A stretch of 49,469 nucleotides of DNA, taken from contig JAOAAK010000011.1 of NCBI GenBank assembly GCA_026418905.1, positions 1-49,469 of the forward strand. The letters run 5' to 3'. Both the position numbers and the translations under genes were made by a program. The notes under the pieces are model-generated. The model was not told the DNA's origin. It saw only the letters and a program-made list of their open reading frames with translations, and did no database searches. Positions within the stretch are counted from its first letter, which is position 1; the number at the start of each line of letters is the position of its first letter. Below, piece by piece: positions 994 through 6,476 of the stretch. Origin of the DNA: Bacteroidales bacterium. GTDB lineage: Bacteria > Bacteroidota > Bacteroidia > Bacteroidales > DTU049.

Positions 994-1021
994 AAAAAGC
1001 CATCTTTGGATGGCTTTTTTA
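994..1021. terminator. Bidirectional rho-independent terminator
   Basis: A perfect 11-base-pair stem (994-1004 with 1009-1019) with a 4-base loop. A-rich and T-rich flanks make it a terminator in both directions, serving the lipoprotein gene and the convergent gldB gene, whose stop codon lies inside it. Confidence 0.85.
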
Positions 1022-2086
1022 TTTATTTTTTTCTGGCCGATAATTGCTTTTTTGCAAAATATCCTGGGCATTCATGTTTTTAAGGAGAGCTTCGACAGTG
1101 ACTGCTTTATTATAGCTCATGTAAGAACGAACGATTCGCCAACCAATAAATTTTCCTACACGAGGAGCACTGTAACGAGAAAAGGTTGATGTGAAAGGAG
1201 CCTCCATGAAATATTTGTTAATTTCGCGCCAGTCGGTGGTATAAAGTAGTTTTTTTTCAATAAAAAAAGACCAAATATTTCCTTCATTTTTTTCTGCCCA
1301 AAACATCTGAGGGGCAGAATAACCAATTTTAATCGAATCTGGCAAATCAGGTTGAGTGATGTCATTGAAATAGAGCAATTTCCCTTCGAAGATCATTTTG
1401 TCTAAAAAGTTGTGAGGAGTGAATCCTTTGCTTTCGATAAAAGCTCTTGCTATTTCACGACTGATGTTAGGGATAATATATTCGCGACTCATTCTTCTTC
1501 GCAGATATTCTGGTATTTGCCAAAGTTTGTATATGTGAAAATCTTTCCCCAGAAACATATCCAATGCAATGATGATGGTGTTTTCTGCATACTTTATGGG
1601 ATATTCAATATCTCCACCTGAAACGTACGTGTAAACTCGGGGTATTTTCCAGTCTGGAAATTGACTTTTGATTCTTATAAAAACTTCTTTAAGCTTTTTT
1701 TCGAGTGTATCCAAATTTGGATATTGTTTCATGGTCTCCTCGTAAAGTTTTTTAACTGAGTAGTCTTGGAGGTATGATTTTAGTTGTGCCAAATTAGCGG
1801 GATTATCCAGATCTGCTTGAGAATAAAAAGGATAATATATGGAGTGGAGCTTGGAGAGTTTTTCTTTCAAACTATCTAAGGGAATAGCAAAAAGATCTTT
1901 TTCGTAACGATAGATGGTAATAGTGATCTGGTCGAGGCTATCTTTTTCTTTAACAATGGGTTCACGTTCATATGCTTTTTTTCTGTCGCATGTACATGAG
2001 TTGAAAAATAATAGAAAAGTTATGGAGAAAAAGAAAGTTGCCTTGATAATTGTCAACATTATTGAAGATACATATTTTTTTTTCAT
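1019..2086 (-). CDS. gldB: Gliding motility lipoprotein GldB
   Basis: A 355-residue protein recognised as GldB. The N-terminus has a long hydrophobic segment ending in an NSC lipobox with Cys31, so it should be a lipoprotein. The body carries the family pattern: an FDWKIP/YTYVSG-like region (here PDWKIPRVYTYVSGG), a GKDFHIYKLWQIPEYLRRRM stretch, and the C-terminal SAPRVGKFIGWRIVRSYM signature. Length is close to the usual 310-340. GldB is required for gliding in Flavobacterium, and gldB next to nadE is an order seen in that group, which supports the call. The exact biochemical role is not known. The gene diverges from the 2111 operon, and its probable -7 box (2104-2111) is interleaved with that operon's promoter. 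Confidence 0.88.
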   Translation of the reverse strand: MKKKYVSSIMLTIIKATFFFSITFLLFFNSCTCDRKKAYEREPIVKEKDSLDQITITIYRYEKDLFAIPLDSLKEKLSKLHSIYYPFYSQADLDNPANLAQLKSYLQDYSVKKLYEETMKQYPNLDTLEKKLKEVFIRIKSQFPDWKIPRVYTYVSGGDIEYPIKYAENTIIIALDMFLGKDFHIYKLWQIPEYLRRRMSREYIIPNISREIARAFIESKGFTPHNFLDKMIFEGKLLYFNDITQPDLPDSIKIGYSAPQMFWAEKNEGNIWSFFIEKKLLYTTDWREINKYFMEAPFTSTFSRYSAPRVGKFIGWRIVRSYMSYNKAVTVEALLKNMNAQDILQKSNYRPEKNK

Positions 2087-2103: not shown

Positions 2104-2111
2104 CAAAGTTA
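2104..2111 (-). promoter_or_regulatory. Candidate -7 box of gldB
   Basis: Read on the minus strand this is TAACTTTG, an exact TAnnTTTG match 18 bases before the gldB start. No clear -33 TTG is seen. It overlaps the first codon of the divergent gene at 2111. Confidence 0.45.
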
Positions 2112-2794
2112 TGAAAAAGGTTGTGTTTTTAATGGCGGTCTTTACATTTTATGTGAATACATTAAAAGCTCAAGAAACTGAAACCAAATTGCTACGATTT
2201 GGGCTTCAAGGGAACGCGGGTCTTTGCTGGATGAAAACAGACCAAGATTCATTGCAAAGCTTGGGTTTACGTCTTGGTTATGGATATGGATTTATCACAG
2301 AAATAACTTTAGCAAAAAATTTTGCTGTCGCTACTGGATTCGATGTAATTTACCAAGGAGGAAAAATTGAAAAAAAGGGAATTAAAGTAGCATTTCCTCC
2401 CGACACTGTGAAAGAACTTGCTAGCAGAATTTCAACATATCGCTTACAATACCTCGATATTCCTCTTACGTTGAAAATGAAAACCAATGAAATCAATTAC
2501 ATGACTTACTTTGCTCGTATTGGTGGTTCGTTTGGCTTAAATCTCCAGGCAAAGGCTGATGAAAACTACAAAAATATTCCAGGCACTAAAGAATTTACCT
2601 TAGAGAAGGTCAATATTAAAGAAGAAAGAAAGTTCTTCAGAGTCAATTTTCTCATAGCAGCTGGTGTAGAATATTCTCTTGGAGGAACTACTGCAGCTCT
2701 TGCTGAAGTTTCCTTTACTAATGGTTTGACTTATCTTCTCGACGACAAAGTGAAAGGTAACTATCTTCAGTTAAAGTTGGGAATTTTGTTCTGA
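2111..2794 (+). CDS. PorT-like outer-membrane beta-barrel protein
   Basis: A 227-residue protein with a signal peptide (cleavage probably after Ala20, TLKA/QE). The mature chain shows alternating hydrophobic strands typical of an eight-stranded barrel: GLQGNAGLCW near the start, LGYGYGFITEITLAKNFAVATGF, RLQYLDIPLTLKMK, and a terminal YLQLKLGILF strand ending in phenylalanine. This is the OMP_b-brl_2 / PorT-like family, abundant in Bacteroidota. It could be a structural barrel or a distant relative of PorT, a type IX secretion factor. The neighbouring porQ and gldB make a secretion link possible but do not prove it. It is the first gene of an operon with nadE (9-base gap) and porQ. Confidence 0.75.
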   Translation: MKKVVFLMAVFTFYVNTLKAQETETKLLRFGLQGNAGLCWMKTDQDSLQSLGLRLGYGYGFITEITLAKNFAVATGFDVIYQGGKIEKKGIKVAFPPDTVKELASRISTYRLQYLDIPLTLKMKTNEINYMTYFARIGGSFGLNLQAKADENYKNIPGTKEFTLEKVNIKEERKFFRVNFLIAAGVEYSLGGTTAALAEVSFTNGLTYLLDDKVKGNYLQLKLGILF

Positions 2795-2803
2795 TGTGTC
2801 ATT

Positions 2804-4342
2804 ATGTTCGTTGCTCAAGTACTTTCACGTTCAGGCAATTTTAGTTTTAACATTGCTCAGTTTCATAATGTTTTTTCAAAGTTTGAGAAAAATAATTTAG
2901 ATTTATTGATTTTTCCTTCACATTTCATTACAGGAATAGGTTTTCGTGACTACCATCCAAGACTTTATTCGAAAGAAAAATATTTATCTCATGTAGCTGA
3001 GATGATTGAAAAAACTCGTCCTATAGATGCAAAGATTTTGATAGGTACAGATTTACACGAAGGTCATGAGGGTAATCACATACTACTCATTAGTCAGGGC
3101 AAAATTTTGGATGTTTTCACTGAAAATGACGGGCTCGTTGATCTATCTGATTTGAAAAAGAAAAAGATATTTACTATCAATGATGGTCGTAGAGTTTTGG
3201 TGCTATTTTTTAAAGAAGTTGCTTCTGCTAATATTTCTGTAGATTTTTTGAAAGACATTGACGTTTGCTTAGTTTTTATGGACGAGCCCTATTACCATGG
3301 GTGCATTGAGGATAGAATACAAACATTAGAAAAGTACCAAAAGGTTACTGATATCCTTGCTCTGAATTCCTTTGGGTTGGCTGGAGAAAAGTTGTACGAT
3401 GGCACTGTTTTGTTTTTGAAAAAAGATGCTGACCATGAAATTTTTGTTTCTTCGCCCTTCAAAGAGGATCTGTATAACTTGAATGAAATTTCCAGCCAAG
3501 ACAATAATGATTTTGCCAGCTTGGATTATGAAGCCTTACTTTTTGGTATTCGGGAGTTTTCAGAACTCAATGGTAGAAGGTCGTATGTAATAGGTCTATC
3601 TGGAGGGATTGATAGTGCAGTTGTGGCTGCTCTTGCTGTCAAAGCCGTGGGCACGCAGAAAGTAAAGGCACTTATTATGCCATCTCAGTTTACTTCTACA
3701 ACATCTTTGGAAGACGCTTTTTCAGTCGCAAAAAATCTTGAAATTGAATATGAGTTGGTATCTATACAAAAAGTTTACGAAGTTTTTCGAAATGAAAGGC
3801 AAATACATATTTCTGAACCATCGTTGGCTGATGAAAACTTACAAGCACGTCTCCGCATGCTTTTTTTGATGTATGAGGCTAACAGCGAAAATTCTCTTAT
3901 GCTTAACACTTCTAATAAGAGTGAAATTCTGACAGGATATGGCACTTTATATGGGGATGCTGCTGGTGCTTTAAGTGTGCTTGGTGATGTCTATAAAACA
4001 GAAGTGTATAAACTAGCTACTCTCATCAATCAAGATAAACCTATAATACCTGATCGTATTTTAACCAAAGAACCTTCGGCTGAACTTCGTCAAAACCAGA
4101 AAGACAGTGATTCCTTGCCGCCATATCCTTTGCTTGACCCTATCTTGATTGATATTGTTGAGAATGAAATGGATTATGAAGCTTTACTAACCAGGTATGA
4201 CACCACTATTGTAAATAGAGTATTACATCTTCTTTATAGTTCCGTTTTCAAGCTTTATCAGCTTCCGCCTAAGTTAATATTATGTAAATCATCTCTAAAA
4301 ATCACAAAGAACATATTTTATCCTTCTGAATGTCTTTTGTAA
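2804..4342 (+). CDS. nadE: NAD+ synthetase NadE with a degenerate N-terminal glutaminase domain
   Basis: A 512-residue two-domain protein. The C-terminal half is a clear NAD+ synthetase: the ATP pyrophosphatase loop SGGIDSA (266-272), NLQARLR, the TSNKSE motif, a YGTLYGD stretch, and the PSAEL...DSLPPY region. It makes NAD+ from deamido-NAD+ and ATP. The N-terminal 230 residues have the length and strand order of a nitrilase-type glutaminase (AQ near the start, FPSHFITG at 37-44, ALNSFG.....YDG at 186-200). However, the catalytic Glu is Ser39, no cysteine lies where the nucleophile should be (VLVLFFKE, 131-138), and the only two cysteines of the domain, 155 and 167, are elsewhere. The enzyme may therefore use free ammonia or a partner glutaminase. 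It sits between a barrel gene and porQ in one operon. Confidence 0.88.
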   Translation: MFVAQVLSRSGNFSFNIAQFHNVFSKFEKNNLDLLIFPSHFITGIGFRDYHPRLYSKEKYLSHVAEMIEKTRPIDAKILIGTDLHEGHEGNHILLISQGKILDVFTENDGLVDLSDLKKKKIFTINDGRRVLVLFFKEVASANISVDFLKDIDVCLVFMDEPYYHGCIEDRIQTLEKYQKVTDILALNSFGLAGEKLYDGTVLFLKKDADHEIFVSSPFKEDLYNLNEISSQDNNDFASLDYEALLFGIREFSELNGRRSYVIGLSGGIDSAVVAALAVKAVGTQKVKALIMPSQFTSTTSLEDAFSVAKNLEIEYELVSIQKVYEVFRNERQIHISEPSLADENLQARLRMLFLMYEANSENSLMLNTSNKSEILTGYGTLYGDAAGALSVLGDVYKTEVYKLATLINQDKPIIPDRILTKEPSAELRQNQKDSDSLPPYPLLDPILIDIVENEMDYEALLTRYDTTIVNRVLHLLYSSVFKLYQLPPKLILCKSSLKITKNIFYPSECLL

Positions 4343-5396: not shown

Positions 5397-5897
5397 TTAT
5401 TCGACGTTGCCTTTAATTACAAGTGTAATCTGAGAATGTTCAGGATCATTAGTGATAACAGTGATAGTTTTATATTGAGGACCTTTTCTACCGCTTGAGT
5501 CGAAAATTGCTTTGATAACGCTAGTTTCATTTTTCTTTATATCTTTTTGAGGTGGTTCAACAGCTGTGCAACCACAGCTTGCTTTAACTTTCAATATTCG
5601 AAGTGGGTTTTTGCCTTGATTGGTAAATTTAAAAGAATGTTCGATTTTTTCACCTTGTTTAATGGTTCCGAAATCAAAAGTAGTAGAGTCCTTGAAAACG
5701 ATTTTAGGTGCATTTTTTTTGTCTTTTTCTGTCATCCATGAAAAATCCTGAATGATATTGGCACTGAGGTAAATAATTTTTTGTGGCTGCTGGTCATCGT
5801 TGGTGTTAAGATAAAATTGATCAAATACATAACCATATTCTTTTCTTTCCTTAGGGATATAGGTAACGAGGGCAATACCTTCTTCACCAGGTTGCAA
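5397..5897 (-). CDS. DUF1573 protein, C-terminal fragment after an in-frame stop
   Basis: This 166-codon stretch continues, in the same frame, the DUF1573 gene that stops at 5901. It holds the linker region (QPGEEG...YIPKERKEYGYVFDQ) and a complete second DUF1573 domain with DFGTIKQGE, the SCGCT signature and a closing ITLVIKG strand. Only a TTG is available as a start close to the stop (5895-5897); the first ATG lies about 55 codons further in. No signal peptide is present, so a separately translated product would not be exported. It is best read as the second half of one broken gene, unless re-initiation or a base error is involved. DUF1573 domains are immunoglobulin-like folds of unknown function, common in exported Bacteroidota proteins. 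Confidence 0.6.
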   Translation of the reverse strand: MQPGEEGIALVTYIPKERKEYGYVFDQFYLNTNDDQQPQKIIYLSANIIQDFSWMTEKDKKNAPKIVFKDSTTFDFGTIKQGEKIEHSFKFTNQGKNPLRILKVKASCGCTAVEPPQKDIKKNETSVIKAIFDSSGRKGPQYKTITVITNDPEHSQITLVIKGNVE

Positions 5898-5900
5898 AGT

Positions 5901-5903
5901 TTA
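5901..5903 (-). other. In-frame TAA splitting the DUF1573 gene
   Basis: On the minus strand the codons read AAA TAA ACT TTG CAA CCT, giving K-stop-T-L-Q-P in one uninterrupted frame. One base change (for example GAA or AAA to TAA) restores a conventional PK-x-TLQPGEEG sequence. Confidence 0.8.
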
Positions 5904-6476
5904 TTTAGGAATATTTATTTTGAAAAAAGGCTTTACGTCTTGAGCAGTGATGGTCATAGGAATGGTTGCGTTATTATAAAATTTTAAAGTGTCAGTTTTG
6001 GTTTTTGAATCGTAAATATCACCGAAAGCAAGATGATTAGTGAAAAAGTAGAGATTTCCTAGATGTTGAGGATAATTGTCAGCTTTGGTTTTAGGTTTTG
6101 GAATGACTTCTCCTTTGATGGAAAGGACAATGGACGGATTGTCAGGGTCGTTGGTTGTGACAGTAATAGCTTTGTTGAAAAAGCCTGGGCGATTTGCAGG
6201 ATTATAGGTGGCTTCAATAAAACCCTTTTGACCAGGTAAGACAGGATCTTTAGTATACCTCGAAGCAGTACATCCACACGAAGGTTTTACGCTGGTGATC
6301 TTTAAAGTATCATTCCCTACGTTGGTAAATTCAAATTTGCAAGTTTTAGGACCTTCTTCCTCTTTGATTTGACCGAAATCAAAAACTTTTGTTTCAAAAT
6401 AAATGGAAGGCTTTTTCTGACTAAAAATTAGTCCCGTAATTGTAAATAAAATAATAATACTGATTTTTGTTCTCAT
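5901..6476 (-). CDS. DUF1573 protein, N-terminal part ending at a premature TAA
   Basis: A 191-residue product with a signal peptide (MRTKISIIILFTITGLIFSQ) and one full DUF1573 domain: FDFGQIKEEEGP, VKPSCGCTAS, VLPGQKGFIEATYNP, TVTTNDPDNPSIVLSIKGEV. A second region follows (FGDIYDSKTKTDTLKFYNN) and stops abruptly after NIPK. Family members I recall are one chain of roughly 360 residues with two such domains, which is what the two fragments make together. The last gene of the minus-strand operon, 10 bases after mpl. A periplasmic or surface location is inferred. Confidence 0.65.
   Translation of the reverse strand: MRTKISIIILFTITGLIFSQKKPSIYFETKVFDFGQIKEEEGPKTCKFEFTNVGNDTLKITSVKPSCGCTASRYTKDPVLPGQKGFIEATYNPANRPGFFNKAITVTTNDPDNPSIVLSIKGEVIPKPKTKADNYPQHLGNLYFFTNHLAFGDIYDSKTKTDTLKFYNNATIPMTITAQDVKPFFKINIPK

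Follow-up and report, generated by a model that had tools for sequence, protein, structure and literature searches.

A two-domain NAD+ synthetase of a Bacteroidales bacterium with a predicted dead glutaminase domain, and apparent repeated loss of the glutaminase active site in the order

The window analyzed here is the whole stretch of 49,469 nucleotides of DNA from a Bacteroidales bacterium. It encodes a NadE with a synthetase domain that carries its conserved motifs and, in front of it, a glutaminase-like domain that has lost its active site. On the best reading, the protein is orthologous to the two-domain NAD+ synthetases that use glutamine in Bacteroidales-type bacteria, and its N-terminal domain is now a pseudo-glutaminase. 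We consider it likely that the enzyme as a whole depends on ammonia and keeps the former glutaminase as a noncatalytic scaffold. The features are given below.

2804..4342, + strand: nadE-type gene, 512 amino acids, ATG at 2804; the N-terminal glutaminase-like domain is predicted to be catalytically dead.
2804..3511, + strand: N-terminal nitrilase-like domain, residues 1 to 236; active site lost.
3512..4339, + strand: C-terminal NAD synthetase domain; the ATP-loop motif SGGIDSA and other conserved motifs are present.
2918..2920, + strand: Ser39 codon at the expected catalytic-Glu position (FPE to FPS, in LIFPSHF); Glu in 25 of 25 homologues.
3122..3124, + strand: Glu107 codon at the expected catalytic-Lys position; Lys in 25 of 25 homologues.
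3209..3214, + strand: Phe136-Lys137 codons at the expected positions of the nucleophile Cys and second Glu (CE to FK); both in 25 of 25 homologues.
2111..2794, + strand: outer-membrane beta-barrel gene (PorT/SprT-like, weak), directly upstream of nadE; PF13568 at 57.5 bits, over its cut-off.
1019..2086, - strand: gldB, the divergent neighbor; TIGR03514 at 241.6 bits (cut-off, 190).

The synthetase half was originally predicted to be intact, and the profile searches agree. Pfam places PF02540 (NAD_synthase) at residues 249 to 484 with an E value of 2.5e-67, and 81 of the 114 conserved columns of this half are kept. Where two-domain NadE has an extended C-terminal loop that touches the glutaminase domain, the window protein has a C-terminal tail, but the common FGxGRR part is lost, and residues 500 to 512 have low confidence in the structural model. 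The NCBIfam model for two-domain NadE (NF010588/PRK13981) matches residues 3 to 491 at 327 bits, which is under its cut-off of 479. PF00795 (CN_hydrolase) has no Pfam match in the protein at E values up to 1. Residues 1 to 236 alone match 5kha with an E value of 3.6e-7 (phmmer). Of the solved structures, 5kha, a short bacterial form, matches best by sequence, and at the threshold applied no other one aligned across both domains; M. tuberculosis NadE was far weaker.

The active-site columns were set by aligning the protein with 5kha and 25 viral-contig NadE proteins. The catalytic residues of M. tuberculosis NadE are Cys176, Glu52, and Lys121, plus a second essential glutamate, as given in the accessible text of PMC6946656. 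They correspond to F136, S39, E107, and K137 in the window protein. Mapping onto a characterized structure, proposed as a check of the original prediction, was provided by the 5kha alignment, which puts S39, E107, and F136 in the catalytic columns. The replacement of the catalytic Glu by Ser39 and the missing Cys near the nucleophile (VLVLFFKE, residues 131 to 138) had been predicted correctly. The loss is larger than was claimed, and the Lys and the second Glu are also gone. The LPxYxxFDE motif after the catalytic-Lys position is gone as well, and the AASPF motif is altered. Together, the alignments support a glutaminase half that is predicted to be dead, with all four active-site residues replaced.

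The only cysteines left in the domain are C155 and C167. Both lie outside the nucleophile column of the alignment, and they were rejected as candidate substitute nucleophiles. A frameshift or wrong start was also rejected. The N-terminal domains of intact homologues align through the region within a single frame; stops crowd the other two. The domain, which had been supposed to keep its length, is somewhat shorter than in intact proteins: it has 236 residues from the first Met, whereas their median is 269. Of 71 columns that are conserved in 90% or more of the 138 intact proteins from the order, it retains 23 and has lost 48. Those kept include N16, F37, G44, D49, G81, N91, N188, G191, D199, G200, F219, and E221.

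The AlphaFold2 model of the window protein has a pLDDT of 87.2 and a pTM of 0.89. Its input alignment consisted of the 25 viral-contig homologues, all intact, which favors the ancestral fold, and we treat the model as support and not as proof. The best Foldseek matches are the two-domain NadE chains 5kha, 3n05, and 4f4h. VIA-align superposes the model on two-domain NadE 3n05 with a Z of 34.6 and an rmsd of 2.4 over 479 residues. Residues 1 to 229 alone match nitrilase-superfamily amidases with a Z of about 21 (9wpo: Z of 21.1, rmsd of 2.7 over 214 residues). The model thereby supports a nitrilase fold and a two-domain NadE arrangement that would be retained despite the lost active site. The sequence, the predicted fold, and the comparison with relatives agree on a predicted dead glutaminase carried on a retained domain.

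The source genome (G000) has 2.11 Mb and is 97.09% complete. T9SS and gliding genes among its contents point to the order Bacteroidales. Searched with the 512-amino-acid protein, it gave a single match. Elsewhere in it, PF02540 has three further matches, all weak and partial. A paralogue or foreign copy was rejected as far as tested; there is one full NadE, and the gldB-omp-nadE position is common to family members. The protein encoded at 2111..2794 scored far under the cut-off of NF052311 in a profile search. Its homologue adjoins nadE in five family members (loci L006 and L031 to L034) and at many other loci, and the beta-barrel gene marks the ancestral nadE position. The gldB matches at the edge of the five family loci are partial.

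The window's own family holds a series of states. NadE is intact in G300, G301, G302, and G295. G175, which is congeneric with three of these four, has lost the Cys. The active site is lost in NadE of the window and of G071. In the sister genus, to which G071 belongs, searches with the window's own protein and PF02540 found no nadE match in five of the six genomes. Completeness is 96% or more in two of these five, one of which has 8% contamination, and 63 to 83% in the others. The gldB-omp position can be read in G297 (L221) and G267 (L222), where other genes follow instead of nadE. One gene that replaces nadE at this position in the sister genus is presumably purC. In G299 (L220), the contig ends 370 bases past the position and contains no nadE match. 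The family runs from intact NadE through partial and full inactivation to genomes without a nadE match and makes a usable series for testing loss.

Decay of the whole enzyme, with NAD obtained by salvage through PnuC, was weighed against these data. A PnuC-type transporter is present in 12 of 12 family genomes tested, sister genomes lack nadE, and the synthetase half of the window protein evolves fast (end branch of 2.46 against a median of 0.3). However, the intact relatives carry PnuC equally, and it does not discriminate. The window protein also keeps its synthetase motifs, its strong PF02540 match, and an open frame of 512 codons. nadD scores above its cut-off in G000 and likewise in G071, G296, G297, and G299, but not in G267 or G298. 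We find decay of the whole enzyme quite improbable.

The wider order was compared next to the family. The order search matched 272 of 295 genomes, with the best places listed, and the family search matched 7 of 12; the search was repeated on 24 genomes. Order matches beyond the best places and the 24 repeated genomes were mostly weak, were taken as the long NadE form, and stand outside the count. Also left out were 12 rows outside 440 to 615 amino acids (single-domain, long-form, or partial), 5 loci without an open frame carrying the ATP-loop motif, and 7 loci that were duplicates, non-NadE, or placeholders. Second matches in G113 and G213 are outside the count as well. Among the matches listed, the set compared contained 159 two-domain NadE proteins from 159 genomes in 72 families.

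The Glu-Lys-Cys triad is complete in 138 of the 159 proteins. The aligned Cys is missing in the other 21, one of them ambiguous: in L054, a Cys stands one residue off, possibly by a shift of the alignment. The Cys column of the 21 contains Gly, Leu, Asp, Ser, Phe, Pro, or a gap. Glu and Lys are kept in most of them. Both are missing from the aligned columns in the window protein, L035, L044, and L165, and one of the two is lost in L041 and, in part, in L054. Among the 21, PF00795 scores above its cut-off in 14 and gives a weak match in 1 more. It has no match in the window protein, L035, L044, L165, L039, or L166.

The 21 proteins are spread over 12 of the 72 families, and 5 of the 12 also hold intact members. 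A tree of the synthetase domain with 97 rows requires at least 8 changes between the dead and intact states; its bootstrap support is unsettled, and long branches (window, L165, L035, and L171) are unsurely placed. The intact state is taken as ancestral because 138 of the 159 proteins and the outside homologues are intact; the change count itself gives no direction. Judged from these sequences, the order looks to have lost the glutaminase several separate times. Loss shared with relatives had been raised in the original prediction. It does extend beyond one genome, but it does not look like the loss of a single clade. A two-domain NadE read as glutamine dependent from its architecture alone would be misread in about 1 in 8 of the proteins examined (21/159).

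Single-domain NadE was observed in three families, f4, f35, and f9 (L056/G003, L055/G148, L057/G224, and L157/G126). At these loci, the glutaminase domain was lost outright or never gained.

Selection could be measured in three families with Cys-less NadE, f79, f81, and f113; the window's genus is represented by one genome. The N-terminal domain omega is 0.08 to 0.14 in Cys-less pairs of these families (5 of 10 pairs with finite dS), and the f113 value rests on a near-saturated dS. Intact pairs gave 0.04 to 0.14 (n = 4 with finite dS). The dead N-terminal domains are still under purifying selection, at least in these three testable families. In f81 (L042, L043, and L158), the Cys-less N-terminal domain evolves 3.3 to 3.8 times faster than the synthetase domain at nonsynonymous sites. 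The corresponding ratio is 1.1 to 1.9 in intact pairs, and f81 is above the other groups tested. Its domain is perhaps at an earlier stage of decay or in a change of role.

These results bear on why the domain persists. It may be a passing relic, now functionless and heading for deletion as in single-domain or nadE-less relatives. The absence of nadE in most of the sister genus, with other genes at the gldB-omp position in two genomes, points this way. So do the 48 lost columns of the window domain and family f4, in which single-domain NadE occurs together with a two-domain form that is Cys-less, though ambiguously so. The purifying selection on Cys-less domains argues against a relic, as do the fold-type residues and the confident predicted nitrilase fold kept in the window domain. 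We regard a relic as possible but doubtful. It seems unlikely to us that the dead domain has, in repeated lineages, taken on a new role in adjusting NAD synthesis, as a sensor or by binding a partner. If true, Bacteroidales-type bacteria would have evolved, several times, NAD synthetases of two domains that run on ammonia and are regulated by their former glutaminase.

The preferred reading remains an ammonia-dependent enzyme with a scaffold domain. With its active site replaced, the N-terminal domain would not be able to hydrolyze glutamine, and the synthetase domain would amidate deamido-NAD with free ammonia. The N-terminal domain may persist mainly by packing on the synthetase domain and holding the oligomer; the original prediction allowed it either a structural or a regulatory role. 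Its loss of activity would be tolerated where cells always hold enough ammonia. The window protein would represent one loss among several separate ones in the order, and some of these may have gone on to loss of the domain or the gene. An argument against the scaffold is that other members of the order have single-domain NadE and can do without the N-terminal domain.

Either free ammonia or an outside glutaminase had been proposed as the nitrogen source, and the data favor the former. G000 contains only two CN_hydrolase proteins, of 268 and 546 amino acids. The same two sizes make up the non-NadE set of G300, G301, and G302, and G295 has one more. Since G000 shows no extra nitrilase-type glutaminase subunit, free ammonia is favored over an outside glutaminase. 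Two-subunit NAD synthetases with their own glutaminase genes do exist, according to the available part of PMC3376133, and a separate subunit could dock on the dead domain or take its place. The two CN_hydrolase proteins, found in a search for that fold, nevertheless match in number and size the non-NadE ones that three of four intact relatives in the family have, and the docking place is filled by the dead domain. Continued use of glutamine through such a subunit is most improbable.

Human NADSYN1 p.C175Y offers a parallel. This protein lost the nucleophile Cys and has near-wild-type activity with ammonia and almost none with glutamine in vitro, as reported in the accessible text of PMC10866660. 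Its behavior indicates that an enzyme of the NadE family can lose the nucleophile and still carry out the ammonia reaction. By analogy with it, and from the lost active site, the 512-amino-acid NadE probably runs on free ammonia. C175Y differs in being a lone point mutation, with the other active-site residues kept, that is harmful in its host.

The NadE forms described in the available parts of PMC3376133 and PMC7196632 are single domain (ammonia) and two domain (glutamine). The window protein shares its domain order, an orthologous synthetase domain, and its overall fold with the short two-domain NadE2-Gln type (5kha, 4f4h, and 3n05). It differs from that type in the replaced Glu-Lys-Cys and second Glu, the sub-cut-off NF010588 score, and the missing PF00795 match. 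It resembles single-domain NadE-NH3 in synthetase chemistry and predicted nitrogen source but keeps a 236-residue N-terminal domain of nitrilase fold. Its descent and fold place it in the two-domain NadE lineage, but its active site is not that of a glutamine-dependent enzyme. A bacterial two-domain NadE with a naturally dead glutaminase was not found in the literature searched, which left most subscription journals outside its coverage.

The carbamoyl phosphate synthetase CPS I of land vertebrates also lacks the catalytic Cys of an amidotransferase, keeps a glutaminase-like domain, and uses free ammonia, according to the accessible text of PMC7657897. The enzyme and its glutaminase class are unrelated to NadE, and the likeness is one of working and not of kinship. 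Repeated loss with the domain kept would be a bacterial parallel to CPS I. NadE could be used to test why glutaminase domains outlive catalysis and whether a habitual ammonia supply drives the loss.

The ammonium transporter AmtB (PF00909) is encoded in 1 of 21 Cys-less genomes and 83 of 138 intact ones (Fisher P = 1.2e-6). The Cys-less genomes are smaller (median of 2.6 versus 3.7 Mb), and size confounds the link. In genomes of up to 3.5 Mb, the counts are 1/21 and 25/64 (P = 0.0024). Up to 3.0 Mb, the difference is not significant (1/16 versus 8/32; P = 0.24). A pairs test on the tree, with three independent pairs on supported branches, had no power (median sign-test P of 1). Within the window's family, PF00909 is found in four of four intact members (one by a partial match) and none of three Cys-less members. 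This gives a hint that Cys-less cells do not scavenge ammonium. AmtB was rejected as proof of ammonia-rich life; the link fades with genome size held, and the tree pairs give no significance.

Farther along the window, at 5397 to 6476 on the - strand, a single stop codon near 5901 separates two open reading frames that share a frame. Similar repeats occur in both halves. They look like one gene with a nonsense codon or a sequence error.
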